Assembly: GCF_000621865.1 (NCBI RefSeq)
Contig: NZ_JHXE01000008.1
Location: forward strand, 62,001-126,000
From: Pseudobutyrivibrio sp. MD2005
GTDB lineage: Bacteria; Bacillota; Clostridia; Lachnospirales; Lachnospiraceae
Direction of reading: 5' to 3'
DNA length: 64,000 nt
Position numbers and translations under genes: made by a program. The notes under the pieces were generated by a model. It saw only the letters and a program-made list of their open reading frames with translations. It was not told the origin of the DNA and searched no databases. Of this stretch, positions 27,526 to 55,882 are shown one piece after another; the first letter of the stretch is position 1, and every line of letters starts with the position of its first letter.

Positions 27526-27815
27526 CACTGTCACCGTCTCGTCCAATTTACAGTACAATTTCATTTATTCTCTTGTGCACTGTATTTATATAATAATTAT
27601 TACAGTATTATGTTAAAAATTGGGGCCGGTACTGTATTTTTTTACTCTATATTACAGTGTCCTTTGAGTTTTTTTCCAAAATAATGCTTATATCACTTAA
27701 AAACTACAGTGTTCTCTCTCAAAATCACATCCCCGCTGTAATTTGAACTTGTAAGTAGCAGTGCCACCGACCAAATATACTCTCGCACTGTATTCTACTA
27801 AGACTGCATACAGCG
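27526..27815. repeat. Array A: six CACTGT/ACAGTG inverted-repeat units, exact 52-bp period
   Basis: Left arms (consensus CACTGT) start at 27526, 27578, 27630, 27682, 27734 and 27786, each exactly 52 bp apart. Right arms (consensus ACAGTG) start exactly 24 bp later in every unit: 27550, 27602, 27654, 27706, 27758 and 27810. The left arm at 27682 is degenerate (TAATGC), while its right arm is perfect. The 18-bp inner and 22-bp outer spacers are unrelated in sequence between units. It lies in the gene-free stretch 27487-27881 upstream of nrtR; nothing else was seen there. Confidence 0.85.
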
Positions 27816-27881
27816 CCAAAGTCAAAAACCCTATAACTATTGCCAACGTACCAAAGAACAAGTTTGATTAATTATTTATAC

Positions 27882-27946
27882 AAAAATAGCGTTCTCCAGA
27901 ATCGCAAAAATACTATAATATCCTTGCGATTATAATAGAAAACGCT
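27882..27946 (-). terminator. Terminator of the Zn-ribbon membrane-protein gene
   Basis: AGCGTT/AACGCT (27888-27893, 27941-27946) enclose a second perfect stem, AATCGCAA/TTGCGATT (27900-27907, 27924-27931). On the minus strand the outer stem is followed by ATTTTTG. The long internal loop makes this less certain than the other terminators here. Confidence 0.5.
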
Positions 27947-28059
27947 TGATTATTAATGCATAGTTTAGGTATTATAAAAATTCACTATACCAACTGTTTT
28001 TAGTTAATAGTTTTTCATTTTAAATCAACAGACCATATTTATTTACACTAGAATAAACA

Positions 28060-28584
28060 CTAGTTGTATTCTTCAAATACCTTTGATATGAGTGCATATT
28101 CTATCAAAAGCGATTGTGGAACATCGTTAAAACCTAAGTATACAATTTCAGCCCTTCCCGTATCCATATCCACCTCAAATTGAATAGTTGCAGTCACTTC
28201 AGTATTCGCATAAATACAGCCTCCGGTAAATTCAACAATATCTCTACCTTTATCGCTTTCAAAGTAAGTCCAGTCTGGATTTGAAAAAAAGCTTTCAAAG
28301 GCATCTCCATAAGTTATATCTGGATATGCCTCAGGAGCACCATTTTTGATAGCGGTGATATGAGGCTCCTCAGAGAACATATCATAATCTCCGGAATAAT
28401 ATAAGGCAAGACAAACTATCAGTATTGAAATAAGAATCCCACCAATGAATATACCTAATCCCGAATTGTTTGATTTCCGTAACAACGGACTATCTAGAAT
28501 CTGTGTATCCATAAGACTCCGACCACAAATCTGGCAAAATCTTGCTTCATCATTATTTTGATTTCCACACCTCGGACACTCCAT
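28060..28584 (-). CDS. Zinc-ribbon single-pass membrane protein
   Basis: The 174-residue protein starts with a zinc ribbon (MECPRCGNQNNDEARFCQICGRSL, CxxC twice). One membrane helix follows (about 45-65, GLGIFIGGILISILIVCLALYY). The extracellular domain of about 100 residues has VEFTGGCIYANTEVTATIQFEVD, similar in style to small Firmicutes lipid-free sensor or secretion-accessory proteins. Function is unknown. ATG 28584 follows GGGAGG. It lies 81 bp downstream of the XRE gene, on the same strand. Confidence 0.75.
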   Translation of the reverse strand: MECPRCGNQNNDEARFCQICGRSLMDTQILDSPLLRKSNNSGLGIFIGGILISILIVCLALYYSGDYDMFSEEPHITAIKNGAPEAYPDITYGDAFESFFSNPDWTYFESDKGRDIVEFTGGCIYANTEVTATIQFEVDMDTGRAEIVYLGFNDVPQSLLIEYALISKVFEEYN

Positions 28585-28665
28585 TATTACCTCCCATGAT
28601 AATATAGATAGCATCAGTAACAATGTAATAATATCACCAAATAGTGTATTCACTGTGTACTCTTG

Positions 28666-29256
28666 TCAATCCATCCACAATTCATGTTCCATTTTAGCCA
28701 ATCCCAAAGCAAACTCTTCAGCGGATTCCAAAAACGCTCTATCATCATCACTTACAGGAGATATACCTGCTTTATCAAAAAAATCTCTATATTCTTTCAA
28801 TATTTCTAATTGATGTTCTAAGAAATATGATTTTATCGTTTCGGATGTATTATTCTTAAAAGGTCTAATCAACATTCTTCGTTTCATTTTATAAAACATA
28901 TCATATACCCATAATTCATACACTCCACTATCATCAATATAATTTTTCCAAATCTCAGCATAAGCACAAACACTAATAGGTATTTCAAAGTATTCAACTA
29001 ATTCTACCCCCATTGTTTTTGCCCCATTATTTTCACTATCTAAAGGGTTTCGCCCAAGCAGCCAATCAACACTAACGTTAAATATTTCTGCTATGCGAGA
29101 CAAGTGATCACCGGGTGAATTCTCACCTTTTTCCCATTTTGATACTGATGGTTGTGTAACAGTTAATATTTCTGCAAGTTTATTTTGGGTAAAATTGTTC
29201 TTTTTTCTTAGAAAGATTATTCTTTCTCCAATAGTTTTCAAATCAGATTCCGTCAT
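28666..29256 (-). CDS. XRE-family repressor-like protein with extra C-terminal domain
   Basis: The N-terminal helix-turn-helix (about 8-65, RIIFLRKKNNFTQNKLAEILTVTQPSVSKWEKGENSPG) is of the phage-repressor type. The C-terminal 120 residues are helical and not a family I can name. The start follows GGAGG. A 13-bp perfect palindrome in the upstream region (29334-29346) is a likely autoregulatory site. It reads with the Zn-ribbon membrane gene downstream and may control it. Confidence 0.82.
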   Translation of the reverse strand: MTESDLKTIGERIIFLRKKNNFTQNKLAEILTVTQPSVSKWEKGENSPGDHLSRIAEIFNVSVDWLLGRNPLDSENNGAKTMGVELVEYFEIPISVCAYAEIWKNYIDDSGVYELWVYDMFYKMKRRMLIRPFKNNTSETIKSYFLEHQLEILKEYRDFFDKAGISPVSDDDRAFLESAEEFALGLAKMEHELWMD

Positions 29257-29333
29257 TAATTAATTCCTCCACTTAGAATATACTATACTGACGAAATATG
29301 TGTAAAATGATTAAACCGACTTTTTTCCACATT

Positions 29334-29346
29334 ATAGTGACACTAT
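29334..29346. promoter_or_regulatory. Palindrome upstream of the XRE gene
   Basis: ATAGTG-A-CACTAT is a perfect inverted repeat about 80 bp before the XRE start codon. XRE repressors typically bind such short palindromes near their own promoter; binding here is inferred. Confidence 0.45.
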
Positions 29347-29375
29347 GTATCAGATAGAAAAACAGCCTCTCTAAA

Positions 29376-29786
29376 CTAATCTATAACATAAAATTCCAAA
29401 ACAAAAACTTTCCTATCCAGCTCTATTATCCGAAAGATATCGCCGACATTTCCTTTTGCAACATAATAATAATCTTCAAAGATTCTATAATACCCATCAC
29501 ACTCAGAAGCAAGAATGCTAAGCTCCTCTATCAACTTACAATCAAAATGCCATTCTTTGCAGATGCTTTTCATATCGTCTTCCGGAAAACTTATTTCTTG
29601 TAAATCAATATTTTCATTTTCCTTGATTACTTCCATACCAAGAAAATAGTTCCTAAGGGATTCAATCATATCTCCATTTATCAACAGCTGCTCCGCGAAA
29701 AAATAAAATGATACAGTGCCTTCAGTATATTCATTTTCTTCCACCTGACGCTCAAGTTCTTTCAATTTATTTAAAATATTGTCCAT
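29376..29786 (-). CDS. Hypothetical acidic protein
   Basis: I do not recognise this 136-residue acidic protein. It has no membrane segment or cysteine pattern. The C-terminal half (ECDGYYRIFEDYYYVAKGNVGDIFRIIELDRKVFVLEFYVID) alternates aromatic and acidic residues, as in SUKH/SMI1-like immunity proteins, but I cannot place it there with confidence. ATG 29786 follows AAAGGA; the longer frame to 29831 has no SD. Neighbours are the XRE gene and a short ORF, an accessory context. Confidence 0.6.
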   Translation of the reverse strand: MDNILNKLKELERQVEENEYTEGTVSFYFFAEQLLINGDMIESLRNYFLGMEVIKENENIDLQEISFPEDDMKSICKEWHFDCKLIEELSILASECDGYYRIFEDYYYVAKGNVGDIFRIIELDRKVFVLEFYVID

Positions 29787-29874
29787 CTTATAAAATCCTT
29801 TTCTAAATCGCATCATTTTTTGTATTATCATAGGTCACGTGTTTTTTCATTTTCATACTATTCTTAGTTTAAAA

Positions 29875-29903
29875 ATGACATATGATGGGAGTTCTTGTAA
29901 AAT
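29875..29903 (+). promoter_or_regulatory. Promoter of a 20-codon ORF
   Basis: ATGACA (29875-29880, five of six), a 17-bp spacer and TAAAAT (29898-29903, five of six) are on the plus strand, with a start point near 29910. The only thing downstream is the short ORF at 29941. Confidence 0.55.
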
Positions 29904-29940
29904 ACCCCATAAAGATACTTTTTGAAGCGAGGGAAGAATA

Positions 29941-30003
29941 ATGGCATTTATTGGAATACTCTTGGTTGCCATTCTTTACCTAGCGCAGACTAGGTGTTTC
30001 TAA
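29941..30003 (+). CDS. Possible 20-residue hydrophobic peptide
   Basis: The frame reads MAFIGILLVAILYLAQTRCF and stops. The SD GAGGGA lies 6 nt before the ATG and a good promoter is about 40 bp upstream. One membrane-spanning stretch and a short polar tail with Arg and Cys are the look of small membrane toxins (type I toxin-antitoxin) or of small regulatory membrane peptides. No antisense RNA could be recognised with confidence. It lies alone between two minus-strand genes. It may also be a chance frame. Confidence 0.45.
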   Translation: MAFIGILLVAILYLAQTRCF

Positions 30004-30076
30004 TTAACCAATATCTCTTGATTAATATGGCGTACATAATATATATTGGCAAGACTGCAAATTCTAAAATCTATCT

Positions 30077-30814
30077 TTAAAAAATATCTTTTAAAATTCC
30101 AAAAGTTTCCCTAACCATGTTGTTAAGAAGATATTGATATTCTGTGAAAGCTGCAATGCCTGTTACGTCAACATCTGTGTAGCGCTTTGCAATCATAACT
30201 CCTCTAAACACATGGAAATTGTTTGTAACAATCCCCACCTTCATGTCGCTGTTTAATTCTATAAGCTCAAAAGCATTACTGATATTTTGATTTGTATCAA
30301 TTGATTCACTCTCAACTATTATTCTATCCTCTGTTATCCCTTGCTCCATAAGGTATTTTTTCCCGCCTTCACCTTCAGATACGGATTCATTAGCACCCTG
30401 GCCACCAGTAACAATTACCTTTGTATCGGGATTATTATTCAAGTATTCAATAGCAGCATCAAGTCTTGCTTTATAGACTACACTAGGTCCCCAGTCTCGC
30501 ATTTGAGCACCCAAGACAATTATGTAATCAGCGCCATCATCGCCCTTTGAAAAGAACTGGGTAAGTATACAGCCTTGGCATAGGATAAAAATTGCAAGTC
30601 CAGTAGCTACTATAAACCTGAATGCATATCTTAGGGCTTTAGGCACTTTAGGCCATAAGCTTTTCTTATCCATCAGATATAAGAAGCTAAAGAACATGGC
30701 CGCAAAAATCCATATAATAAATGAAAAGGTACCACTTCCAACCATGTATACTGCTACCGAATACAATAATGAAATAATAGCCAAAAGTGCATATACTAAT
30801 CTTAACTTACGCAT
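30077..30814 (-). CDS. YdcF/SanA-family (DUF218) membrane protein
   Basis: About three N-terminal membrane helices (residues 5-45 and 60-85) precede an extracellular DUF218 domain. That domain has YIIVLGAQMRDWGPSVVYKARLDAAIEYL, VIVTGGQGANESVSEGEGGKKYLMEQGI, IDTNQNISNAFEL and VTNNFHVFRG. Family members (YdcF, SanA, ElyC) are tied to envelope integrity and lipid-linked precursors; the reaction is not settled. The 245-residue length is typical. SD is AAGGGG. Confidence 0.85.
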   Translation of the reverse strand: MRKLRLVYALLAIISLLYSVAVYMVGSGTFSFIIWIFAAMFFSFLYLMDKKSLWPKVPKALRYAFRFIVATGLAIFILCQGCILTQFFSKGDDGADYIIVLGAQMRDWGPSVVYKARLDAAIEYLNNNPDTKVIVTGGQGANESVSEGEGGKKYLMEQGITEDRIIVESESIDTNQNISNAFELIELNSDMKVGIVTNNFHVFRGVMIAKRYTDVDVTGIAAFTEYQYLLNNMVRETFGILKDIF

Positions 30815-31228
30815 TAATTATTCCCCTTAACTTTTTTCATCTCATTATAATCTTTTCAATTGTAACACATGTGCTAGACCATATTACTAATAAATTCTGA
30901 ATCTTCTTTCACACTCTTTGCATTACAGTCAAAATACCTGAGTGTGGCATAGGATTTTCAGAAACACAGTCTTTTTTGAGAAAATCTCTATTTTCGCTGT
31001 CTGAATTACATAAAAGATCTAATAATATGAAACTTCTATAGGCTATCAAGGCAAAATACTTTCATTAGATAAAGACAAATACACTCAATCATTGATGTGT
31101 GGCCTAGTTACGCCACAGTCGCTAAAATAAATCAGCGTTTTTACGAATTTTCCATAAAATTGCTGTCTTTTCCCATATTTACTCTATAAAAGGCGTTCTA
31201 AACCATGCCTTATTTGAATCAAAACATA
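30815..31228. other. Gene-free stretch with scattered inverted repeats
   Basis: No frame with an SD and coding character was seen. It contains one unit of the array geometry described elsewhere, CACACTC (30910-30916) and GAGTGTG (30940-30946), 30 bp start to start but not repeated. There is also a short hairpin TGTGGC/GCCACA (31098-31103, 31112-31117). Otherwise it is plain AT-rich sequence. Confidence 0.5.
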
Positions 31229-31264
31229 AAAATAGCACTGCCTATATAAAAGCAGTGCTATTTT
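31229..31264. terminator. Terminator of the giant surface-protein gene
   Basis: AAAATAGCACTGC (31229-31241) and its exact complement GCAGTGCTATTTT (31252-31264) form a 13-bp stem with a 10-nt loop. It lies 29 bp after the stop and ends in TTTT in both directions. Confidence 0.9.
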
Positions 31265-31292
31265 GACCTAACTATTAATTAAAATATCCCAA

Positions 31293-34200
31293 TTAGTACG
31301 CAAAGAAACCAGCTTCCTCACAATCAAAACCATTCTTCGTCAATATATCTGCCTCGTCCTTCAAGATTGTATAGAGTATCTTTCCAGTCTTTTTGTTTGT
31401 CAGCTTGTAGACCTTGTGTCCTAGTTTATCCGATGCATACCAAGCAATTCCTTCATCAGTATAACCATTTGCTATGTAAGCACTTCGCTCGTTTGCATCT
31501 ACTGTATATACATGGCCTCCGTTTTTAGCATCAAACAAACGATATACTGGTTTACCAGATTTAGGGGATGAATGCCATGCAATTCCTTCATCTGTCCAAC
31601 CATTTGCCTTGTCACTTATCAAGTAATCACGTTCACCCACGTTAGTGGTGTATAAATGCTCACTAGTAATGCTATTGAATAATCTATAGACAGGAACTGT
31701 CTTTGGATATGTCTTAGTACTTGATGAGCTTGATGAACCTGATGAACCAGAAGAGCTTGATTCCTCTAATTCTCCTGTTTCTTCTGATGAATCTGATGGG
31801 GTTGATGAGCCATTCTCTCTGTTTTGTGCATTACCATCTTCTGTCGAATATGCAATCACATATTGTGAGAAGTATTTCGAGTAAATGTAAATCTTGTTAT
31901 TTGCAACATCAGCATAGAAGGTACCATCCTGATAATTGCCACTTGGTCTACTGCTAAGAGCTGTAAATATCTGTGTTGAATCATCATGCTTTCTTACAAC
32001 AATTGGATCATATTTTCCTGTGAAGTCGTAGCCTATTGAAATTTCAATTACTTCATCTGTCTCGGTTAAAGCTGTAATCTCTGAGCTATTAATAATCTGC
32101 TGAATATCAATTGCCAATACATCAACAGTAACAGCTCCTTCCTCTTTGAACTGATTCTTAATTGCATTGTCCATCTGACCATCGTTCTTTACGATGTCAC
32201 TTTCAGTTGCCTTACTCTGTCCCTCTGGAGTAACTATAAGATTAAGTTCAATATTATCCCCTAGTTCTCCCGCAAGTCTCTTAGCCTGTGCATCAAGATT
32301 ATCACTTACCTGAGGATTTTCTGATGTATCAATTGCAGTTTCCTGGCCAGCTGGTAGTGCTCCCATAGATGTGGCTGCTTCACCGGTAACTTGCTTTGGT
32401 CCGAATTTGGCTATTTTCTTATTTACCCTATAATATCCCGCTATGTGTTCAGATATATCTATATCCGTCCATGTGTTACCATCGTCTGATTGACTAGCAG
32501 TTACATCTTCTCCTAGTTTGATATCATGGGTAATGGCTCTACCAGTGTCTCCAGTAGCTTCTGCATATACAGTTCCACCTGTTATCGCCATACTATTAGA
32601 TATGCCCAGACCATCGCGTCCACCTTTGACCGTTACGTTACCACCACTTATAACTGTTGAATCAGTACCGCTAGAGTTGTTATTAATACCATAGTTTGCT
32701 CCTGTGATGGTAAGAGTGCCACCTTCTATTTTCAGATTAGCTCTTAGACCTATGGCATTGTACCCAACTGCTTCAAGGCTACCTGTTCCTTTAATTGTGA
32801 GTGGCTTCCATTCAACCATGCGTATAGCATAATTTCCTTCAGTGTTTGCTGCAGTCAATTTATTATTACCAACTAAATTGATTGTAAGCTCTTCATCGCT
32901 ATAGATTACTGCATAATAATGGAGATCCAATTGTTCATTATTATAAAAATTATATCCAGTTGAACTACTGTAGTTATTAAGTGTCAATGTTTTGGTAACT
33001 GGATCATATGTTGCAGTACCTGTGGTTCCATTAACTGTAAGGTTATTTTCGTCTAATTGTATGCCACCGACATAGATAGGGTGTTTGGCAACCTCAACCC
33101 ACTTCGCATAGAGCGTTGTAGCTGCTGTGACTGTATCGGTTTCAAAGTTCCATGCATTTGTACACGCTTCTTCCTTATACCATCCCGCAAAAGTGCAAGC
33201 CTGATCTGTAGGGTCGCTTGGCTTAGTAATATTTCCACCGCTTGCTACATACTGATTGGCTGGTGCAACACCATGGCCATTGGCATCGAATGTTACTGTA
33301 TATGTTTCTGCCACCTGTGCCTCATCGTCAGAATCATAACACACATTATAGCTACCATTATCACTTGAAAAATAGGTTGCTGGAACCTTGTTGGCATTAT
33401 ATGTATTATAACCATTAGTAAAGGTTCCTGTAACACTAGTCATTGTTACACCAATAGAAGCATTTCCAGTTAAAGCTCCTTTAATTTTAATTTTGCAATT
33501 ATCGTTTAGACAAACATTATTACTATTACTGTTAACATTATTACCTGCGATTACAGGATTGCCTGATATATTCATATATCCGTAATCGTATTTTTGATAA
33601 ACACCGCCACCTTCTGCTGCTGTATTAGAACTAATTTCTCCACCTGTCATGGTAAATGTAGCTTTGTTGTTTACACCACCGCCGTTTCCTGTTGCTGTGT
33701 TACCGCTAATTGTACCACCTGTCATGGTAAATCTATCTTCGTTATTTACGCCACCGCCGTTTCCTGTTGCTGTATTACCGCTAATTGTACCACCTGTCAT
33801 CTTAAACGTACCGAAACTGTTATGCACGCCTCCTCCATTACTAGCGTAAGTTTGTGATGCTTTATTAGTACTGATTGTTCCTCCTGACATGGTAACCATA
33901 CTGCCATTAGCTATTCCTACACCAGAACCAGTATTACTGCTAATCTCACCCTCAAACAGATTAAACTTGCCCGAAGACTTCACATAAACTCCACCGGTAG
34001 TTGTATTTGCCGTATTCTCCTTGATTACACCTCCACGCATATTGAAAGTACCAGAGTTTCCACTAACACACACTCCACCACCATATTCTGCAGTATTATC
34101 TATAATTGTTCCTCCATACATATTTAGCGATCCATTATTAATGTATACTCCTCCACCACTATCTGCTGCAGTATTACCGCTAATTGTTCCTCCATACATA

Positions 34201-36032
34201 TTTAGCGATCCACTATTAATGCATACTCCTCCACCATATGTTGCATTACCACCGGTTATCATTCCTGCTGAACCACTGCAATCATATAGATTCAATGTGC
34301 TACCACTACCAATCTCAATAACTCCAGCACTGCCGCTTCCTCTTATTGTTTTGCCATTAAGACAAAGGCTTGTCTCGCCACTTGGAACTGTCCATGTATT
34401 GCTCAAAGTCACATTACTAGACAAATAATAATTACCAGCCACTGTTGGAAGACTATTAGATGTAGTCCACTCTGTCCAACCTGCGTGGTGACTGTTATCA
34501 TCTGTCACAACAATCACATAATCATTTCCACCAATAGTAACAGTAAGTTTTTGCTCTGTAGAAAATGCCTGCTTTGCTGTTACCATCCAGCCATTTTCTG
34601 TATTTTCTACTGAAAAAAGTTCCGGTGCATCAGAAGTTGCTGCTGTCACCTCACCAGAAAGACCTACTGCATTTAAAATTTCAGACAATGCTACAGTAGT
34701 GTCGCCATTCATAACATACTGTAAATTGTTGTATGTAAATTCTACTGTATAGAATGAGAATCCATCTGTTACAGCTTCAACTGTGGTCTCAGCTACTTCT
34801 GTAGCCTCAAGCTTATCTACAGATAAGTCTCCTACTTCACCCTTTACGTGATATACATCTGTCTCAAGATTTACATCAGCTACTTCTTCAAGTGTGAAAG
34901 AAACCTTTACCTGCCCCTTTGAATTATCAGGCTCGATTTCATTGTCTTCTTTATCAAGTACTTTGATATCAAATGTGTAAGACTCTACTTTATTCTTTTC
35001 ATCGGCACGTTCTTCTTCTACTGCTGCTTCAACAGCCTGTAAATCTGCACCGTATACCTTTTCTACATATAGCTCTGCTCCTTCTGGGAACACACCTGCA
35101 TCAGCCTTTACAGTAATTCTTACTCCATCAACTACCTGCGATTTTTCAAAGGCTGCTTTCAAATTCGTATTTACGATATTTACTCTAATTGTAGGAACAG
35201 TAGTAGCCACAACATAATCTGTTTCAAATGAAGGCTCAAATACATAACTTGCTTCCTTACTAGTATCAAACTCCTCACTGTCTGCAAGCTTCCATTCAAC
35301 ATTTTCGATTGTAATTTCTGATTGTAATGTTTGCTCTTCTATTACTGTTTCATATTCAGTTTCTGGCATTGCTGCTTCAATAGCTCCCGCTACTGGGCTA
35401 GAATTATCTTCATCTAATTCTGCAGCCTTTGCCACCATTGCTGGAAACAGAATATCGATAAGTCCTGTATCTACAGACTCTTCTGTAGACTGTGACTCAT
35501 CTGCTGGCTCTGAAGTTTCTGCAGTAGGTGTTTCCTCAGCTGTTGGCTCCTCAGCTGACGCCTCTGGTTCTGTAGCTTCCTCTTGCTCTACAGAATCTGC
35601 TTCTTCAGCTTTCGTTTCATCTACTGATTCTTCTTTTGTCTCAGTAGGCTGTTCATCAGCAACATCCTCAGCCATAGTATCTTCAGAATCAATCGCATCT
35701 GTAGTCTCTATAGGCTCCTCTACTGGTTCTTCTACTATCTCCTCTGGTTCAACAGCAGGTTCTTCGGCTTGCTTTTCAACAGCCTTCTTTACCTCCACTT
35801 CTTCTACAGTTTCCACTGTTGCTTTCAAAGTGTTTGGAAGATTTACATCCTCAAGGCTGGCCCCCACTGGCAATTCCTGCACTGCCACTTTATCCCCTAG
35901 AGCACTAAAATCCACAATCCTTGCTGTATTGGCATCCATTGCATGAGAGATGATACTCAAATTCATGCTACTTGCCACTAACAACAGAGAAAGTCCCATG
36001 GACAATGCTCTCTTTGCATTTTGAATTTCCAT
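31293..36032 (-). CDS. Very large secreted repeat protein (surface adhesin-like)
   Basis: The 1,579-residue protein starts with a Sec signal (about 1-31). An acidic Glu/Ala/Thr/Pro-rich region (about 75-190), beta-rich domains, and a right-handed beta-helix of GGxISGNTATGNGGGV repeats like Chlamydia Pmp proteins (about 600-800) follow. Next come one InlB-type repeat (VTFDANGHG to TTLYAKWVE, about 907-980), a second beta-helix (about 985-1157), a Ser-rich linker (about 1410-1444) and three DUF5648-like repeats (VYRLFNSITSEHLYTTN, VYRLFDAKNGGHVYT, VYKLTNKKTGKILYT). There is no LPXTG anchor, so the DUF5648 tail may hold it on the wall. ATG 36032 follows GAGGAGGGA. Near-identical DNA repeats at 33640-33800 and 34100-34230 make internal recombination likely. 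Confidence 0.85.
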   Translation of the reverse strand: MEIQNAKRALSMGLSLLLVASSMNLSIISHAMDANTARIVDFSALGDKVAVQELPVGASLEDVNLPNTLKATVETVEEVEVKKAVEKQAEEPAVEPEEIVEEPVEEPIETTDAIDSEDTMAEDVADEQPTETKEESVDETKAEEADSVEQEEATEPEASAEEPTAEETPTAETSEPADESQSTEESVDTGLIDILFPAMVAKAAELDEDNSSPVAGAIEAAMPETEYETVIEEQTLQSEITIENVEWKLADSEEFDTSKEASYVFEPSFETDYVVATTVPTIRVNIVNTNLKAAFEKSQVVDGVRITVKADAGVFPEGAELYVEKVYGADLQAVEAAVEEERADEKNKVESYTFDIKVLDKEDNEIEPDNSKGQVKVSFTLEEVADVNLETDVYHVKGEVGDLSVDKLEATEVAETTVEAVTDGFSFYTVEFTYNNLQYVMNGDTTVALSEILNAVGLSGEVTAATSDAPELFSVENTENGWMVTAKQAFSTEQKLTVTIGGNDYVIVVTDDNSHHAGWTEWTTSNSLPTVAGNYYLSSNVTLSNTWTVPSGETSLCLNGKTIRGSGSAGVIEIGSGSTLNLYDCSGSAGMITGGNATYGGGVCINSGSLNMYGGTISGNTAADSGGGVYINNGSLNMYGGTIIDNTAEYGGGVCVSGNSGTFNMRGGVIKENTANTTTGGVYVKSSGKFNLFEGEISSNTGSGVGIANGSMVTMSGGTISTNKASQTYASNGGGVHNSFGTFKMTGGTISGNTATGNGGGVNNEDRFTMTGGTISGNTATGNGGGVNNKATFTMTGGEISSNTAAEGGGVYQKYDYGYMNISGNPVIAGNNVNSNSNNVCLNDNCKIKIKGALTGNASIGVTMTSVTGTFTNGYNTYNANKVPATYFSSDNGSYNVCYDSDDEAQVAETYTVTFDANGHGVAPANQYVASGGNITKPSDPTDQACTFAGWYKEEACTNAWNFETDTVTAATTLYAKWVEVAKHPIYVGGIQLDENNLTVNGTTGTATYDPVTKTLTLNNYSSSTGYNFYNNEQLDLHYYAVIYSDEELTINLVGNNKLTAANTEGNYAIRMVEWKPLTIKGTGSLEAVGYNAIGLRANLKIEGGTLTITGANYGINNNSSGTDSTVISGGNVTVKGGRDGLGISNSMAITGGTVYAEATGDTGRAITHDIKLGEDVTASQSDDGNTWTDIDISEHIAGYYRVNKKIAKFGPKQVTGEAATSMGALPAGQETAIDTSENPQVSDNLDAQAKRLAGELGDNIELNLIVTPEGQSKATESDIVKNDGQMDNAIKNQFKEEGAVTVDVLAIDIQQIINSSEITALTETDEVIEISIGYDFTGKYDPIVVRKHDDSTQIFTALSSRPSGNYQDGTFYADVANNKIYIYSKYFSQYVIAYSTEDGNAQNRENGSSTPSDSSEETGELEESSSSGSSGSSSSSSTKTYPKTVPVYRLFNSITSEHLYTTNVGERDYLISDKANGWTDEGIAWHSSPKSGKPVYRLFDAKNGGHVYTVDANERSAYIANGYTDEGIAWYASDKLGHKVYKLTNKKTGKILYTILKDEADILTKNGFDCEEAGFFAY

Positions 36033-36068
36033 TCTTTCCCTCCTCATAAATAATTTTATAAACAATGC

Positions 36069-36116: not shown

Positions 36117-36155
36117 ACATTTGGTTCCCTATTACCAGAAGACAGAGATAGCCTA

Positions 36156-36235: not shown

Positions 36236-36305
36236 AAGGTTGCTTCATCTGCTTCATTCTGTCAACTCACTTTCTAAAATAGTTTTCTAGTGACTAACCT
36301 ATGAC

Positions 36306-36424
36306 TTTTTGCGAGAAAACCAAAGAAATCTCCCGCAAAAATCTGGCCTCGCCAGATACGCCTTTGCATAAATGCAAAGCCTAGTCAAATACGATTATTG
36401 AAAAACTGATGTTTTTCAATAATC
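36306..36424. repeat. Cluster of four perfect hairpins
   Basis: In order: TTTTTGCG/CGCAAAAA (36306-36313, 36334-36341, 20-nt loop); ATCTGGC/GCCAGAT (36341-36357, 3-nt loop); CTTTGCAT/ATGCAAAG (36362-36379, 2-nt loop); GATTATTGAAAAA/TTTTTCAATAATC (36393-36405, 36412-36424, 6-nt loop). None has a clear T-run. The first has the 28-bp arm spacing of arrays D and E. No gene is seen. Confidence 0.7.
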
Positions 36425-36503
36425 TATAATAAATTATTTTCTTTTCTATTCTGTGAAAATCCATTTCTGTTCACACAGTTTTCAAATATATATTCACAGT
36501 CGC

Positions 36504-36625: not shown

Positions 36626-37010
36626 TTAAGTTAAAATAGTTATTTTGTAAATTCACTTAACAAAAAATCTTCAAATTATTAAGTGTAATATAACTTCCGG
36701 ATTTTTCACTTAAAAATCCGATGACCGTGTAAGTGTAGATAACTAATTCCATTAATAAACTTATAAAAATCAGTACTATTTCAACCGAAGTTAAGTTAAT
36801 GTACAAATCCACATAAATAAACTGAACTCTAGAAACAAATTGTTAAGTGAAATATCATTTTTTCTAGAATAAACTCAATTATAGTTAAAATAATTTAGTC
36901 AAAGTTAAGTGAATACTATTTACACTATAATAAACTTAACTGCCACCACCAATTTAAATGAAACCAATAGCAATTCAAATTTACTTAACAGTATCCTCCC
37001 ATTTTAAGTT
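36626..37010. repeat. Array D: seven TTAAGTG/CACTTAA inverted-repeat units plus a lone left arm
   Basis: Left arms start at 36626, 36679, 36729, 36791, 36843, 36905, 36954 and 37004. Right arms follow 28 or 29 bp after each of the first seven (36654, 36707, 36758, 36820, 36872, 36933, 36982). Some arms carry one or two changes (GTAAGTG, TTAAATG, AACTGAA, AACTCAA). Unit spacing is 53, 50, 62, 52, 62, 49 and 50 bp, close to 5 or 6 helical turns. Spacers between arms are unrelated. The array fills the gap after the SGNH gene. Confidence 0.85.
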
Positions 37011-37037
37011 AATACAGAAATAAAACTAAATGCCCCG

Positions 37038-47922: not shown

Positions 47923-47983
47923 ATTTTCCACCTCCGATAGTAAAACCTTTTTAATTATACAGTATTGGATAATCTAATTCCAT

Positions 47984-48011
47984 AAAAATGCCCCATTCCT
48001 AGGGAATTTTT
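47984..48011 (-). terminator. Terminator of the P-loop kinase gene
   Basis: On the minus strand AAAAAT-T-CCC (48002-48011) can pair with GGG-GC-ATTTTT (47984-47994), a short imperfect stem ending in ATTTTT. It is 10 bp after the stop. Confidence 0.5.
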
Positions 48012-48020
48012 ATTGTTTTT

Positions 48021-48758: not shown

Positions 48759-48834
48759 TGTCCCCTCCATTTTATAGTTACACTCTCACTTGTTTAATTA
48801 TGGCATAATGCATTCATTTAATAAATAATTCAAC

Positions 48835-48898
48835 CGACACAATTATCGAACATTTTGCAACAAAATGTTTGATATGTCGTGGACAATTCTCTTTTAAT
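48835..48898 (+). promoter_or_regulatory. Promoter of the condensation cassette with dyad operator
   Basis: TTGATA (48869-48874), an 18-bp spacer and TTTAAT (48893-48898) give a start point near 48905. Directly upstream, AACATTTTG-CAA-CAAAATGTT (48849-48869) is a perfect 9-bp inverted repeat, flanked by CGACA (48835-48839) and TGTCG (48875-48879). The site is placed to control this promoter. The TetR-type protein encoded at 52614-53189 is a natural candidate to bind it. Confidence 0.65.
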
Positions 48899-48912
48899 TG
48901 TTCATTAACTTC

Positions 48913-48984
48913 CCTGCCCTCTAGAATCCACATAGTCAATATGCTATCTTCCTTTAAAAATAATTAAAACAACGAGAGGGCAGG
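48913..48984 (+). promoter_or_regulatory. Leader hairpin that can mask the SD of the condensation gene
   Basis: CCTGCCCTCT (48913-48922) is exactly complementary to AGAGGGCAGG (48975-48984). The second arm contains the Shine-Dalgarno and ends 2 nt before the ATG. The loop is 52 nt. When closed, the ribosome site is buried. The predicted start point (48905) leaves both arms in the mRNA. Confidence 0.65.
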
Positions 48985-48986
48985 TT

Positions 48987-50369: not shown

Positions 50370-50389
50370 ATGAATGGGAGGTAATCATT

Positions 50390-50629
50390 ATGTCATTAGA
50401 GAAAAAGTTTAAGGAATTAGTATCACAGTACTGCATGGCTTCGCCAGAAGATTTAAAGGGCTCAAGCCGTTTTCGTGAAGATTTAGATTTCAGCTCACTT
50501 GATTTCATGTCTTTCTTGGGCGAGCTTGAGGATGAGTTTGATGTAGAGCTTGAGAAGGACAAGATTGTAAATATTCGCACTATCGATGAAGCTTTATCTA
50601 TGATTCAGGATTTACAGGAGGCATCATAA
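50390..50629 (+). CDS. Acyl/peptidyl carrier protein
   Basis: The 79-residue acidic four-helix carrier has the phosphopantetheine site in REDLDFSSLDFMSFLGELEDEFDVEL. The modified Ser is in FSSLDF, a variant of the usual DSL motif. It is dedicated to the neighbouring condensation and adenylation enzymes by position. Its stop overlaps the ligase ATG by 1 nt (TAATG). SD is GGGAGG. Confidence 0.88.
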   Translation: MSLEKKFKELVSQYCMASPEDLKGSSRFREDLDFSSLDFMSFLGELEDEFDVELEKDKIVNIRTIDEALSMIQDLQEAS

Positions 50630-52158
50630 TGGATACTATCAGAACTCTTTGGGATAGAACAGCTGCAAGCTTTAAAGACCTGACAGCAATCAGATATCTG
50701 GAAAAGAAAGATGTTAAAGAAGTCACTTATGATAGCCTTAATAAGAGAATCACATTGATCAGAACCGGCCTTTTTAATACTGGTATTTCTGAAGATCATA
50801 TTGCTATTATTGGCGAATCTAGCGTCAATTGGATTGCCAGCTACCTTGCTGTTGTCACAGGCAACAACATTGCTGTTCCACTGGATGCATTGCTTCCTGC
50901 AGAGGATTTAATCGATCTATTAAATCGTTCTCATGCAAAGGTCTTGTTTTTAAGTCCAAAGCTCATTGACTTAGCAGAAGTAGCTCTTAAGAATTGCGCT
51001 GAGCTAAAACAGATTTGGTTGCTTAGCGATTCCTATGAGCAATTTGTTCCAAATGCAAAAATCGGCACTATACCTGAGTTGATGAATCTTGGCAACAATA
51101 ACGCAAAAACACCTACATCAGATTCTGCTTCTCTTGCTACTATCATCTTTACTTCCGGAACTACTGGAAAGAGCAAGGGCGTAATGCTTACTCAGAAAAA
51201 TCTCTATGACAACGTGGAAAATGTGCACTATGAAGTGGATCCTGGTTGCGTCATGATGAGCGTTCTTCCAATTCATCATGCATACTGCCTTGTAATGGAT
51301 TGGCTAAAGGGATTCTCGCTTGGCTCTATAGTTTGTATCAACGATTCCTTCATGCATATGGTAAGAAACATGAGCATATTCAAGCCAGAAGTAATGCTTA
51401 TGGTTCCTTTGATGATTGAATCTATTTATAAGCGTATATCTGCTACACCAGATGCGCCAGTAGAATTAATCAAAAATAAAGTGTTTGGTGGAAACCTTAG
51501 GATAATATTTACAGGTGGTGCCCACCTAGACCCGTTCTATATTGATGAATATGCGAAATATGGTGTTGATATTTTAGAAGGCTACGGCATGTCAGAATGC
51601 TCTCCTGTTATCACAACAAACACTCCTGAATGCCATAAGCCAGGCTCAATTGGAAAGCCTCTTGATAATGTTGAAATAAAGATTGAAGATGGCGAAATTC
51701 TCGTACGTGGTACAAGCGTAATGCGTGGCTATTATGAAATGCCAGAAGAGACAGCGCAGGCATTTACAGATGGCTGGCTTCACACTGGGGACAAGGGTTA
51801 CATCGATGAAGACGGATATCTTTTCATCAATGGACGTGTGAAGAATCTTATTATTATGTCAAATGGTGAAAATATTTCTCCTGAGGAAATCGAAAATAAG
51901 ATTGCCCTTAATCCTCTTGTTGCTGAGGTTATTATCGCTGGAAACAACACTGGCCTTACAGCCCATATATATCCAGATCAGGATGTAATTGAAAGACGCG
52001 GATTAAGTGATGCTGATGTGCAGACCACACTTCAGGAATTTATTGATAGTTACAACAGTGCTCAGCCTAGCTACAGACATATCACTAGTCTCATAGTTAG
52101 AAATGAGCCATTCATTAGAAACACTACTGGCAAGATTAAAAGAACTCAAATTGCTTAG
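50629..52158 (+). CDS. AMP-forming acyl/aminoacyl ligase
   Basis: A 509-residue member of the ANL family (acyl-CoA synthetase / NRPS A domain). It has the P-loop IIFTSGTTGKSKGVMLT (about 181-197), ILEGYGMSECSPVIT (A5-like), GWLHTGDKGYIDEDGYLFINGR (A7/A8) and a C-terminal NTTGKIKRTQI with the catalytic Lys. Overall it looks closer to fatty-acid than to amino-acid activating enzymes (GYGMSECSP). It should load the carrier encoded just before it. Coupled by 1-nt overlap; SD is AGGAGG. Ends the operon, with array E following. Confidence 0.88.
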   Translation: MDTIRTLWDRTAASFKDLTAIRYLEKKDVKEVTYDSLNKRITLIRTGLFNTGISEDHIAIIGESSVNWIASYLAVVTGNNIAVPLDALLPAEDLIDLLNRSHAKVLFLSPKLIDLAEVALKNCAELKQIWLLSDSYEQFVPNAKIGTIPELMNLGNNNAKTPTSDSASLATIIFTSGTTGKSKGVMLTQKNLYDNVENVHYEVDPGCVMMSVLPIHHAYCLVMDWLKGFSLGSIVCINDSFMHMVRNMSIFKPEVMLMVPLMIESIYKRISATPDAPVELIKNKVFGGNLRIIFTGGAHLDPFYIDEYAKYGVDILEGYGMSECSPVITTNTPECHKPGSIGKPLDNVEIKIEDGEILVRGTSVMRGYYEMPEETAQAFTDGWLHTGDKGYIDEDGYLFINGRVKNLIIMSNGENISPEEIENKIALNPLVAEVIIAGNNTGLTAHIYPDQDVIERRGLSDADVQTTLQEFIDSYNSAQPSYRHITSLIVRNEPFIRNTTGKIKRTQIA

Positions 52159-52182
52159 TTGAACAAAAACCTGCGAAAATAG

Positions 52183-52545
52183 TTAAGTGATTATGTCTTA
52201 TTTCTAATTTCACTTAAATTGCGAAGGCTGTTAAGTTTTTTAATTCGAAAAAATTTTTTCACTTAAAATTTGTTAAATATTTTTAATTATAGTTAGGTTG
52301 AATTTAAATGATTTTTTATTTCACTTAACTTTCTTGGGTTTATGTTAAGTTTATTTAGAAAAATCACATTCTAACTTAACCCAGATAAAAATTGTAATGA
52401 AAAATTTAAGTTTATTTTTCGAAAGTGACTTTGATACTTAACAGAAGTTGGCAATTTTAAGTGTAAAAATCAGAATTCATATTCCACTTAACTTTTTCCT
52501 TGTTTTTCATTAAGTGAATCTTGCTAATTTGAAATCCAAACTTCA
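52183..52545. repeat. Array E: seven TTAAGTG/CACTTAA inverted-repeat units
   Basis: Left arms start at 52183, 52231, 52293, 52345, 52406, 52457 and 52510. Right arms start 28-30 bp after each: 52211, 52260, 52322, 52373, 52436, 52485 and a degenerate one at 52539 (AACTTCA). Orientation alternates strictly through all fourteen arms. Distances between units are 48, 62, 52, 61, 51 and 53 bp. The arm word and inner spacing are the same as array D, 15.5 kb away; spacers are unrelated. It fills most of the gap between convergent genes. A hairpin CAATATTTTCT/AGAAAATATTG (about 52583-52607) near its right end has no T-run. Confidence 0.85.
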
Positions 52546-52613
52546 TTTCCTATAAAATGGGCAGAATTTGGCTTTGCCAATCAATATTTTCTTTCAGAAA
52601 ATATTGGTCATGT

Positions 52614-53189
52614 CTATACTCCCATAAACGGAAGAACTCCATTTAAAAATATTTTTGTTAGAATATCTGCAATTTCTTCTGCGTCCTCTTCACAGTCTCC
52701 CGCTGTCCATTTGTGAAGAATACCAAGATTCAAACCGATAGTGGCTGCAATATAATACGAAAACTCTTTATTGTTTTTTACAATTTCCGAATCGCCCTCA
52801 CTTATTTTAGCAACGTAGCGATGGAACATAATCATTGCTTTTTCTAAGAAGCTGTCACCTCTTGGGCTATGCAAGATACTTGATAAGAATGGATTATCCT
52901 TTGTGTAATTGCAAATTGCTAAGAAATATGAGTGACATAACTGATGGTCATTCTTTGGATGAAAGCTCTCCATCAATTCAAAAATATCCTCAATTGTCTT
53001 GTCCTCTGCAGCTGAAATCAAAGCTGGCACGTTCTCATAGTGATTATAAAATGTGCTTCGAACAATACCTGATTTCTTAACTACATCAGCCACTGTGATT
53101 TTCTCGAATTGCTTTTCTTTACTCAGCAAAAAGAACGCGCCTAAAATGGCTTCTTCAGCTGTGCTGTATCTTTCATCTAATTCTTTCAT
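52614..53189 (-). CDS. TetR-family transcriptional regulator
   Basis: The 191-residue protein has an N-terminal helix-turn-helix (about 10-57, AEEAILGAFFLLSKEKQFEKITVADVVKKSGIVRSTFYNHYENVPALISAAED). The all-helical C-terminal ligand domain carries a TetR_C-like segment ending ILTKIFLNGVLPFMG. It converges on the condensation / carrier / ligase operon and is the only regulator near, so it may control it via the dyad at 48849-48869. ATG 53189 follows CGGAGA; the longer frame to 53240 runs into the pgm terminator. Confidence 0.88.
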   Translation of the reverse strand: MKELDERYSTAEEAILGAFFLLSKEKQFEKITVADVVKKSGIVRSTFYNHYENVPALISAAEDKTIEDIFELMESFHPKNDHQLCHSYFLAICNYTKDNPFLSSILHSPRGDSFLEKAMIMFHRYVAKISEGDSEIVKNNKEFSYYIAATIGLNLGILHKWTAGDCEEDAEEIADILTKIFLNGVLPFMGV

Positions 53190-53215
53190 AACAATCTCCG
53201 TATATAAAATGTTGT

Positions 53216-53317
53216 AAAAAAGCCAGTGGGTAGCTAACAAGCTCTAATATTACTTAAGGAGAGCTTTCTTCAGCTCGACGTAGTAATATTATGGCTTGTA
53301 AGCGTAACACACTGGCT
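53216..53317 (-). terminator. Unusually long, multi-stem terminator of the phosphoglucomutase gene
   Basis: AGCCAGTG/CACTGGCT (53221-53228, 53310-53317) enclose ACAAGC/GCTTGT (53237-53242, 53294-53299) and TAATATTAC/GTAATATTA (53245-53253, 53283-53291). An inner AGCT/AGCT lies at about 53262-53275. On the minus strand the outermost stem is followed by TTTTTT. The whole is about 100 nt, far longer than the other terminators here. It ends just upstream of the TetR gene. Confidence 0.75.
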
Positions 53318-53328
53318 ACCTATAAAAC

Positions 53329-55011
53329 TTAGCTAAATATTGGCTTTAATGCATCTGCAAGCTTATCCTTCATAGCCTGTGCTTCTGCAAGATCCTTACC
53401 CTTTGTAGTGAAGTAAGCTTTAATCTTTGGCTCTGTACCTGAAGGACGAACAACTACTGTGCAACCATTTTCAAGTGTGTAGATAAGAACATTTGATGAT
53501 GGAAGTCCTGTCTCTTCAGTATTCTTGTAATCTGTAACCTTTGTTACAGCAATGCCTGCGATATCCTTTGGTGGATTCTCGCGAAGTGAGCTCATGATAC
53601 CAGCCATTGTATCCATTCCAGAAAGGCCTGGGAACTCGAATGAATCTACCTTGTTGAGGTAGCGGCCATACTCTGCATAAATCTCCTCAAGACGCTGCTT
53701 AAGTGAGCTTCCGATGCTGCGATAGTAAGCAGCCATCTCACAGATAAGCATTGAGCCGATAACAGCATCCTTATCACGAACATAAGGGCCTGCAAGGTAT
53801 CCGTAAGACTCCTCGAAACCGAAGATGAATCTGTCTACTTCGCCATCAGCCTCAAGACCAGCAATCTGATCACCAATCCACTTGAAACCTGTAAGAACTG
53901 AACGAAGCTCAACACCATAGTGCTCTGCTACTGCATCTGCAAGTGGAGTAGAAACGATTGACTTAACAGCTACAGGATTCTTTGGCATTGTGCCCTTTTC
54001 GATACGTCCTGCTGCGATGTAGTCAAGAAGAAGTACACCAACTTCATTACCAGAAACAAGCTCATAGCTTCCATCTGGACACTTCATAGCAATACCCACA
54101 CGGTCTGCATCAGGGTCAGTAGCGAGCATAAGATCTGCGCCTTCTTCCTTTGCAAGCTCAAGACCAAGCTTAAGAGCGTCAAAGATTTCTGGGTTTGGAT
54201 AGCTACATGTTGTAAAGTAACCGTTTGGATATTCCTGCTCTGGAACGATAGTGATATCTGTGATACCGATGTCGTTGAGAACACGTGTAACTGGTACTAA
54301 ACCTGAACCATTAAGTGGGCTGTAAACAAGCTTAAGACCTGCTGTCTTGCAAAGACCTGGACGAACCTGGCGGTCTTCGATTGCTGCATAGAAAGCATCC
54401 TTGCAATCATCACCAACAAACTTGATAAGTCCTTTCTCAACACCCTCAGCAAAAGACATAACCTTTGCACCTGTGAGAACATCAGTCTTCTGAATCTCCG
54501 CATATACGATAGCTGCTGCATCATCTGTCATCTGGCAACCATCTGGACCATATGCCTTGTAACCATTGTATTTTGCAGGATTATGTGAAGCTGTAACCAT
54601 GATACCAGCATTACACTTGTAGTAACGTGTAGCAAATGAAAGTGCTGGAACTGGCATAAGAGCATCGTAAATACGAACATTGATGCCATTAGCTGCTAGT
54701 ACACCAGCTGCTGCCTTAGCAAAAACATCACTCTTAAGGCGTGAGTCATAGCTGATAGCAACTGTCTGATTGCCCCCCTGAGTCTTAACCCAGTTTGCAA
54801 GACCCTGTGTTGCCTGACGTACAACATATACATTCATTCTATTTGTACCTGCACCAAGTACACCACGAAGACCTGCTGTACCAAATGCAAGAGCCACTGC
54901 AAATCTGTCCTTAATCTCTTCATCCTTACCCTCAATCTTTGCAAGCTCAGGCTTTAAATCTGGATCATCCAAATCAGATGCAAGCCAACGCTTATAATCG
55001 TCATTATACAT
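53329..55011 (-). CDS. Phosphoglucomutase/phosphomannomutase
   Basis: A 560-residue alpha-D-phosphohexomutase of the PgcA/YbbT type, interconverting glucose-1-P and glucose-6-P. Signatures are FGTAGLRG, the phosphoserine loop GIMVTASHNPAKYNGYK, the metal site ATDPDADRVGIA, the sugar loop FGFEESYGYL and the phosphate loop VRPSGTEPKIKAY. Its product feeds polymer and wall sugar synthesis. Strong SD AAAGGAG and a near-consensus promoter (55053-55081). It has an unusual long terminator. Confidence 0.95.
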   Translation of the reverse strand: MYNDDYKRWLASDLDDPDLKPELAKIEGKDEEIKDRFAVALAFGTAGLRGVLGAGTNRMNVYVVRQATQGLANWVKTQGGNQTVAISYDSRLKSDVFAKAAAGVLAANGINVRIYDALMPVPALSFATRYYKCNAGIMVTASHNPAKYNGYKAYGPDGCQMTDDAAAIVYAEIQKTDVLTGAKVMSFAEGVEKGLIKFVGDDCKDAFYAAIEDRQVRPGLCKTAGLKLVYSPLNGSGLVPVTRVLNDIGITDITIVPEQEYPNGYFTTCSYPNPEIFDALKLGLELAKEEGADLMLATDPDADRVGIAMKCPDGSYELVSGNEVGVLLLDYIAAGRIEKGTMPKNPVAVKSIVSTPLADAVAEHYGVELRSVLTGFKWIGDQIAGLEADGEVDRFIFGFEESYGYLAGPYVRDKDAVIGSMLICEMAAYYRSIGSSLKQRLEEIYAEYGRYLNKVDSFEFPGLSGMDTMAGIMSSLRENPPKDIAGIAVTKVTDYKNTEETGLPSSNVLIYTLENGCTVVVRPSGTEPKIKAYFTTKGKDLAEAQAMKDKLADALKPIFS

Positions 55012-55052
55012 AATTACATCTCCTTTATTTTTTCATAACTAAAACTCTCTTA

Positions 55053-55086
55053 ATTTTAAATTTTTAGGTTAGGCATGTCAACCTAA
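55053..55086 (-). promoter_or_regulatory. Phosphoglucomutase promoter with inverted repeat
   Basis: TTGACA (55076-55081), a 17-bp spacer and TAAAAT (55053-55058) are read on the minus strand. TTAGGTT (55064-55070) and AACCTAA (55080-55086) form a perfect 7-bp inverted repeat over the -35 and part of the spacer, a likely operator. Confidence 0.75.
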
Positions 55087-55106
55087 GTAATGTTAATTAT
55101 TTTTTG

Positions 55107-55146
55107 TATAGATTCCTGAAAGACATCAGTTTTTCAGGAATCTATA
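55107..55146. repeat. 15-bp perfect hairpin upstream of the phosphoglucomutase promoter
   Basis: TATAGATTCCTGAAA (55107-55121) and its exact complement (55132-55146) with a 10-nt loop. There is no T-run on either strand, so it is not a standard terminator. It lies between the promoter and array B. Confidence 0.7.
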
Positions 55147-55175
55147 TCTAATTGGGGTGGGTGCGGCGCCTAAAT

Positions 55176-55415
55176 TTACCACTGTAACCCGGATTCTTGT
55201 AAATACAGTGGTAAAATTAATGTGCTTTTACCACTGTAAATCAGATTCTTCTATATTAAGTGGTAATTTCTGAGTATCTTTACCACTGTAAATCGGCTTC
55301 TTCCATATTCAGTGGTAATTTTTGAGTATCTTTACCACTGTAAATCGGCTTCTTCTATATTCAGTGGTAATTTCTTTGTACGGTAAAATATTCAACAAGC
55401 AACAGCCATACCGTA
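55176..55415. repeat. Array B: four TTACCACTG/CAGTGGTAA units, exact 52-bp period, plus a fifth with other arms
   Basis: Left arms start at 55176, 55228, 55280 and 55332, each exactly 52 bp apart. Right arms start exactly 30 bp later (55206, 55258, 55310, 55362). Loop sequences of units 2-4 are similar, so this array looks young. A fifth pair with different arms, TACGGTA (55379-55385) and TACCGTA (55409-55415), keeps the 30-bp spacing. The arms contain the CACTGT word of array A. Confidence 0.9.
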
Positions 55416-55540
55416 AATAAGTACAAATAACGATTTGTTAATTTAACTGTCTTCAATTATACAGAATCCTCATCCATCAATGAACACACAATTCAAAAAT
55501 TGGTAACAAAAAAAATTTCACAGGCTCTACTTGCTGAATA

Positions 55541-55882
55541 AAAAGGTATAACCATCTATAATTATTGCTCTTAGTTATACCTTTTTAGATTCAATATTAT
55601 GTTCCATAGCTCATTAAAAGGTATAACCTTCCATAATATTCCTCGCTAGTTACACCTTTTTGACTTCAATATAGTGTCTCATTGCCCACCAAAAGGTATA
55701 ACCCGCCATAAATTTCCACTCTGGTTATACCTTTTTGACTTCAATATAATGTCTCATTGCCCACCAAAAGGTATAACCCGCCATAAATTCCCAAGCCAGT
55801 TATACCTTTTTGACTTCATATTAATCCCTCATAAATTATAAAAGGTATAACCACCTCCCATATCAGACCAAGATTATACCTT
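55541..55882. repeat. Array C: five AAAAGGTATAACC/GGTTATACCTTTT units, 75-bp period
   Basis: Left arms start at 55541, 55616, 55691, 55766 and 55840 (75, 75, 75 and 74 bp apart). Right arms (GTTATACC core) start 33 bp later in every unit: 55574, 55649, 55724, 55799 and 55873. Units 3 and 4 are nearly identical through loop and spacer; units 1 and 5 have diverged. Each unit has an A-run before and a T-run after the stem, so each resembles a bidirectional terminator. It lies downstream of folC. Confidence 0.9.

Follow-up and report, generated by a model that had tools for sequence, protein, structure and literature searches.

Periodic inverted-repeat arrays with conserved geometry in Pseudobutyrivibrio and a linked family of putative PD-(D/E)XK-like nucleases

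Introduction

Repeats in the intergenic regions of bacteria are usually explained as RNA hairpins or as relics of transposases. The repeats of partition centromeres lie near the gene of their binding protein, and sopC follows a 12-copy design. Here we describe periodic inverted-repeat arrays of rumen bacteria, five of which (A to E) are found within a 64-kb stretch of the genome of Pseudobutyrivibrio sp. MD2005 (the window). In each of them a short arm and its reverse complement form a unit, which is repeated at near-constant distance. We conclude that the arrays probably serve as assembly platforms for DNA-binding proteins of an undescribed family, which occurs in multiple copies, has a C-terminal domain resembling PD-(D/E)XK nucleases and whose genes were found directly downstream of such arrays elsewhere in the genus.

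Several described systems share features with these arrays. Repetitive extragenic palindromes (REP) and bacterial interspersed mosaic elements (BIME), with their REP-associated tyrosine transposases (RAYT), likewise form species-specific, dispersed intergenic arrays with regular spacing and alternating orientation, are linked to a gene family, are more numerous where the gene is present and occur as several families per genome (PMC2817692). In partition centromeres, such as the parS heptads of pSM19035 and sopC, for which the title of a cited reference mentions a 43-bp repeat, repeated sites nucleate a nucleoprotein complex (PMC9499535). Clustered regularly interspaced short palindromic repeats (CRISPR) resemble the arrays in that their repeats are conserved and their spacers are unrelated in sequence and fixed in length.

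Results

Conserved Geometry of the Arrays

The clearest example is the AGTATCACT family with seven four-unit arrays, in which the spacer length is constant to 1 bp despite differing sequence. The loops within the units measure 17 nt in 24 of 28 units and 18 nt in the remaining four, and the internal linkers between the units are either 37 nt (16/21) or 38 nt (5/21) long. Leaving aside the recent duplicate C4b, the left arms are identical and the right arms agree to 97%. Between different arrays the linkers share 33-38% identity (36-40% by a centre-split measure) versus 30% from composition alone, an excess which fits the A+T pattern described below. Loops with the same unit index are 46% alike and loops with different index 31%, which we attribute to the polarity flip of the loops, likewise described below.

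For the TTACCACTG family 178 distinct units were evaluated after the removal of nine loci with chance or single palindromes (L033, L075, L100, L107, L126, L127, L137, L147, and L180). The centres of neighbouring palindromes are 52-53 bp apart in 152 of 162 cases, and this distance is still kept by 22 of the 26 pairs whose loops are less than 50% identical. Units of 39 and 41 bp exist, and the linkers adjust so that the period stays near 52-53 bp. The second, 41-bp unit type, TTACCACTAGC...GCTAGAGGTAA, occurs beside the 39-bp type in the same arrays (L115/L153 and L233), with the period kept. At L139 four TTACCACTG units are followed by eight TACTATC units with the same 52-bp period and no phase break.

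The sequence-only reading, which was made from the letters of the window, had expected arms to be better conserved than spacers. This is what copied arrays show: array C and its copy at L074 differ by 4 substitutions in 101 arm positions and by 39 in 164 spacer positions (p=1e-5), and the duplicates C4a and C4b, both located in L047, by 2 changes in 72 arm and 21 in 179 spacer positions with unchanged net length.

Such copies raise the alternative that the arrays are purely selfish dispersed repeats without any bound architecture, i.e., products of tandem duplication or similar to miniature inverted-repeat transposable elements, with a regularity that stems from unit copying. At purN-purD the copy number ranges between 0 and 14, array C has its copy at L074, two copies are found within L047 and the presence of arrays differs among close species. 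Mobility may still contribute. As a full explanation, however, we consider such selfish repeats unlikely, since lengths are exact in units whose spacers are near chance identity, duplicates change their spacers without net change in length, two motifs stand in phase at L139 and the loops of two families carry a positional A+T pattern.

Helical Phasing and Array Symmetry

The periods of 13 arm families are 51, 52, 52, 52, 53, 53, 53, 62.5, 62.7, 72.4, 73, 73.7, and 75 bp, whereby TTAAGTGA was entered with 52 bp although its arrays D and E have 62-bp steps as well. They cluster at whole turns (near 5, 6, and 7) for any helical repeat of 10.3-10.6 bp (Rayleigh p ~3e-5, and ~5e-5 if a 55-bp array of genome G031 is added), with p values that are generous because some arm families may share ancestry. 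The sequence-only reading had assigned the units of four of the five arrays to one face of the helix and had left out array C. The clustering at whole turns agrees with this assignment, and the exception can be relaxed, as the 75 bp of array C correspond to 7.1 turns at 10.5 bp and roughly fit too.

In the spacers of the AGTATCACT family the A+T content forms a wave with its peak at 10.15 bp over six independent arrays, and none of 1000 spacer shuffles reached its height. Taken singly, four of these arrays exceeded all 300 shuffles, L073 all but one and L244, with its peak at 9.25 bp, all but five, while no wave was obtained with masks moved off the arrays. The mean linker profile has its maximum at 9.6 bp, or at 10.2 bp without the outer six bases (0/2000 each). 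For bacterial genomes a published abstract puts the usual period at about 11 bp (PMC4132750); over the length of an array, the difference to 10.2 bp is suggestive only. Moreover, the loops of units 1-2 and of units 3-4 are of opposite polarity (none of 2000 random flips was as good, for a split picked after data inspection out of eight possible ones), and each four-unit AGTATCACT array therefore has one overall dyad, i.e., a two-fold symmetry. A fixed A+T/G+C pattern was also found in the TTACCACTG loops (0/5000).

DNA Sites or RNA Hairpins

Palindromic units with stems of 9-12 bp could also be transcribed stem-loops that, for instance, stabilise mRNA or act as attenuators or terminators within operons and at 3' ends. 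Six of the 18 listed array entries are located at most 60 nt from a stop codon (L153, L139, L145, L130, L133, and L135, the last two being one locus) and one array lies within the purN-purD pair. In addition, the ninth arm position of TTACCACTG, which is outside the counted core and still paired in most units, differs on both sides between the 39- and the 41-bp type, as a stem would, and thereby speaks for hairpins and against DNA sites.

Within the core the opposite was observed. Of 1424 core arm positions in the 178 TTACCACTG units (eight core positions), 31 are off consensus and every one of these departures is one-sided (31/31), hence uncompensated, and several loci retain an A-A mismatch that recurs at the sixth arm base. 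Linker lengths are kept to 1 bp, though RNA would not constrain linkers, and the A+T wave, the array dyad, and the whole-turn periods are features of DNA geometry. Searches against Rfam gave no match in the window at the gathering threshold and, for ten array loci, matches outside the arrays only, namely a tRNA and a pan motif. Conserved geometry, A+T wave, dyad, and uncompensated arm changes therefore argue for a DNA-protein geometry, and arrays of RNA hairpins appear quite unlikely. This accords with the earlier preference for a DNA-binding protein, for which spacer lengths and a candidate protein encoded downstream of the arrays speak as well.

A Protein Family Encoded Downstream of the Arrays

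The proteins adjoining TTACCACTG arrays in L136, L152, and L141 have no Pfam match at E 0.001 and all belong to one family. A search with the L136 protein gave matches in 28 of the 29 genus genomes, and as many as 11 in a single one. In L136, L140, L152, and L141 the TTACCACTG array lies directly upstream of the family gene; 29 nt separate array and gene start in L152, and in the other three the array overlaps the predicted 5' end. As the flanking genes are shared, these represent one orthologous locus in four sister species, at which the pairing of gene and array is conserved despite protein identities down to 48%.

The home genome (G000; 26 contigs, 3.09 Mb, of which 864 kb or 28% were sampled) contains nine family matches. 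The upstream DNA of eight was inspected and six of them have an array, each with its own motif. These are CGCTGTT with ~62.5 bp, partly decayed, at paralogue C1, whose gene is interrupted by stops; ATATAGTC with 53 bp, readable in part only, at C2; AGTATCACT with 72.4 bp, starting ~200 bp upstream, at C5; TACTAGCG in exact 53-bp steps with seven plus and seven minus arms at C7; ATGCAACCCA with 53 bp at C8; and CACAAGTAG with 62.7 bp at C17. Among control genes a chain of at least four arms within ~440 bp upstream was present in 16 of 595 cases, several of which are dispersed arrays themselves (Fisher p=3e-8, whereby C5 was counted from arm positions and the other paralogues and the controls by the same detector). 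Words of a ~130-bp interspersed element (see below) were read by eye in L258, adjoining the array of one paralogue.

A close clade of the family was delimited by an identity of 47% or more across most of the protein length. In the 29 genomes, clade and TTACCACTG were both present in 11 and both missing in 14, with the array alone in one and the clade alone in three, an agreement of 25/29 with p=1e-4, or 5e-4 if a partial match of 45% in G022 is counted, although both values are generous because the genomes are related and not independent. Other long family matches reach at most 39% identity, and short partial ones up to 45% (G022) and 53% (G015). In an order-level sample, 20 of 116 genomes and 13 of 82 genera contained family matches. 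The maximum within the order are the 18 matches of G078, many of them restricted to the C-terminal domain. G031, from another family of the order, has six family matches and a four-unit alternating array with GCATGCAA and a period of 55 bp (L184 19695-19867). The regions downstream of recR (six relatives) and beside an AIM24-type gene (six relatives) are not syntenic with G000.

The family proteins have a length of ~270-290 residues and may, by sequence and model, be classified as PD-(D/E)XK-like putative nucleases, undescribed and present in multiple copies. Their C-terminal 110 residues keep the pattern RSKSE...PDF...EH(F/L)G in all seven rows compared, including the E of RSKSE, the D of PDF, and the E of EH(F/L)G. 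This domain matches the end of the PADLOC candidate PDC-S68 in 3/3 proteins (E 5e-26 to 1.5e-22). One of the three, the L152 protein P0002, also matches HEAT_CxxC_PD-DEXK, a PD-(D/E)XK defence family (E 6e-4), and its residues 42-191 match GajA weakly (5e-4). Distant matches on plasmids are annotated as AAA ATPases (three) and as a RecD-like helicase (one), and one is unannotated. The predicted order of secondary structure elements, alpha-beta-beta-beta-alpha-beta, is that of the PD-(D/E)XK core at low confidence, and the best Foldseek rows include the nucleases MunI and FAN1 at E 0.26 to 0.74 amid unrelated proteins.

Other candidate partners were rejected. Y1_Tnp (PF01797), indicative of RAYT, had no match in G000 and some match in 10 of the 29 genus genomes. 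Lrp/AsnC and HU were matched in 29/29 genomes, mostly in one copy, and had no link to the arrays. These two bear on a further alternative, according to which the upstream arrays are autoregulatory operators only, with the dispersed ones belonging to a regulator or nucleoid protein that is unrelated. In the sampled part of G000 five of the six paralogue-linked motifs indeed have no dispersed array. We nevertheless regard this division as improbable: AGTATCACT and TTACCACTG occur in dispersed arrays as well as upstream of family genes, and their geometry is the same in both settings, and HU and Lrp cannot explain lineage-specific arrays because they are present in all 29 genomes, mostly once each.

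Detection and Distribution

For the detection no motif was specified; instead 8-mers with at most one mismatch, alternating orientation, near-constant period, and at least five arms were required. Strongly changed arms are thus under-counted, since only one mismatch per 8-nt arm was allowed. Applied to the window, the detector recovered exactly the five arrays of the sequence-only reading and nothing in four local dinucleotide-preserving shuffles. Another 1.58 Mb, composed of 800 kb of the own genome and 779 kb of relatives, gave 15 matches versus none in one shuffle of each stretch. Eleven of them were in the own genome, where nine further arrays remained after removal of two coding repeats, and four in relatives. 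Scanning the 864 kb by motif yielded additional arrays at L042, L046, and L075. In further scans the shuffle controls gave one match for 955 kb and none for 400 kb. Arrays thus recur in the own genome and in relatives, while shuffled sequence yields near none.

CRISPR-like arrays in relatives were recovered as well and served as a natural positive control (L194 10099-10902; L178 1-400). Matches discarded, apart from these, were the coding repeats L069 and L070, a viral coding repeat (L127), an odd element in a relative (L090 4920), the tandem repeats L201 and L206, a TTCACA-rich stretch in L165, and L176, which we take to be LexA-like sites.

In a collection of 84,980 species the TTACCACTG palindrome was found in 26 stretches, 24 from Pseudobutyrivibrio and two with single matches in other taxa, and it is carried by 12 of the 29 genus genomes (G012 with a single match). 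With the exact pattern, AGTATCACT palindromes occur in G000 only and in none of 60 relatives. A slightly looser pattern detects 30 in G000, of which 28 constitute the seven four-unit arrays and two are single, and in the C6 array a fragment of a fifth unit precedes the four. Collections of plasmids and phages contained no relative of arrays B or C. The viral contigs held two single TTACCACTG palindromes without an array, no AGTATCACT, and, despite 256 pattern matches, no relative of the nuclease-like protein. At the phage contig L262 (a distant family member) and at L263 (a match of the C-terminal domain) no array was present.

A nine-unit array with TCATGTTT and a period of 51 bp is located at L129 5326-5768, ~4.8 kb away from a TTACCACTG array; likeness between its units recurs at every third one, as if they had been copied three at a time.

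The Arrays of the Window

The five arrays of the window, given here without strand, have arms of 7-13 nt in alternating orientation; the 18-21 nt of the sequence-only reading were too long for the recognisable arms. Its periods were right for array B (52 bp) and, with small departures, for A (52 bp) and C (75 bp); the steps of D and E are mixed (~48-53 and 61-62 bp).

Array A (27526..27815) comprises six units with the arms CACTGTA/TACAGTG, the plus arms at 27526+52n and the minus arms at 27549+52n, separated by unrelated spacers. The 52-bp grid is kept by 11 of 12 expected arms, and a decayed plus arm lies near 27682. Array D (36626..37011) has TTAAGTGA/TCACTTAA arms alternating in orientation about every 26 bp, with unit steps of ~50-53 and 62 bp. 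Array E (52183..52517) belongs to the same motif family and is flanked by convergent genes; the TTAAGTGA motif also recurs in an array of L051 (18115-18367). In L003, L014, and L019 array E is missing from its junction together with flanking DNA. Array B (55176..55370) is composed of four 39-bp palindromes TTACCACTG...CAGTGGTAA between a Mur-ligase-type gene and pgm. Arrays of six units are found at the equivalent site in G006 and G008, and no array at this junction in L004, L005, L007, and L012. Array C (55541..55880) consists of five units with GGTATAACC arms (13 nt with flanks) in 75-bp steps, except for the last one of 74 bp, and its second, dispersed copy lies at L074 2989-3252.

Adjoining array D, positions 31293-36065 encode a protein of 1590 residues with List_Bact_rpt and DUF5648 domains. 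An interspersed element of ~130 bp with a 40-bp palindrome at its end recurs near several arrays (L043 6274-6400; L059 16066-16187 and 17522-17651; L064 186-322), and short relatives of it are located in the window at 36390-36438 and 55095-55146.

Discussion

Arms and geometry are conserved, the A+T content is phased in one family, arrays lie upstream of family genes and the close clade co-occurs with its motif. We infer from this that the family proteins bind the arrays. Each arm would be contacted by one protein subunit and the inverted arms by dimers, which would stack along one face of the helix and thereby bend or wrap the DNA between them. Bound upstream of its own gene, the protein could control its own expression. 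Copies of the array may spread to further intergenic sites and may persist there as orphans after loss of the gene. For array B the best reading is that of a dispersed array belonging to the TTACCACTG clade, the cognate gene of which may be missing in G000.

Besides the ninth arm position, several observations weigh against this reading. No family member is encoded within the window, cognate genes for arrays A, C, D, and E were not found, and G000 has TTACCACTG arrays without a close clade member. Conversely, three genomes with the clade (G013, G017, and G020) have no exact TTACCACTG matches, and in the 21 genomes that are at least 90% complete the association decreases to p=0.008. Upstream arrays are lacking at the home paralogues C5:362 and C10 and at the L087 member of G015, and the lack of dispersed arrays for five paralogue-linked motifs in the sampled 28% of G000 also counts here. 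Concerning the phasing, the 55-bp array of G031 corresponds to 5.2 turns. No significant A+T wave was found in A or in D, E, and L051 together. The earlier statement that the sequence outside the arms is simply unrelated has to be corrected for some families, which keep an A+T pattern. Where the units of an array are near-identical, harmonics of the 52-bp repeat partly force a 10.4-bp peak, for which reason the A+T spectrum of such arrays was discarded. For the protein, the fold model is weak (mean predicted local distance difference test 63), and Foldseek gave no match for it at E 0.001. In addition, H and not K occupies the third catalytic position, with EH at the place of E-x-K and no lysine.

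Beyond this, and tentatively, the arrays could represent an undescribed class of chromosomal nuclease-array systems. Each PD-(D/E)XK-like paralogue would have a private arm motif and would assemble as a defined particle (with eight arms in the AGTATCACT family) that wraps DNA units of five, six, or seven turns. Motifs would diversify with the paralogues, and arrays would spread as decoys, insulators, or parasites of the protein.

The findings suggest a new protein-plus-array system in bacterial chromosomes, in which the geometry itself appears to be conserved while the sequence drifts, and they provide a multi-copy family of unknown function with a testable target. If the protein binds its array, each genome offers a natural set of paralogue-motif pairs, useful for the study of diverging DNA recognition and of wrapped nucleoprotein particles in bacteria. 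No such system was found in the open-licence literature, which does not establish its absence from print.

Compared to the described systems, the partition centromeres differ in that the arrays presented here are chromosomal, with many loci and motifs per genome, and that the linked protein is nuclease-like. CRISPR consist of direct repeats with one class of spacers, whereas the arrays alternate in orientation, vary in both spacer classes, and show an A+T wave in one family. The PADLOC candidate defence proteins PDC-S68 and PDC-S69 have the C-terminal domain in common with our family; the PDC-S68 models comprise ~1200 residues, in contrast to the ~270-290 residues here with an own N-terminal part and linked arrays. 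REP/BIME-RAYT may be regarded as the nearest system in life style, but the likeness fails on enzyme, repeat structure, and gene layout. The enzyme is a Y1 transposase there and PD-(D/E)XK-like here. Each REP forms a short palindrome that carries a GT(A/G)G head. RAYT genes are described as lying between two REPs (PMC2817692), whereas the single arms of our arrays, read by eye, are non-palindromic and without a common head, and the array is located upstream of the gene. Finally, with whole-turn periods and fixed spacing the arrays follow a stricter geometry than REP/BIME.

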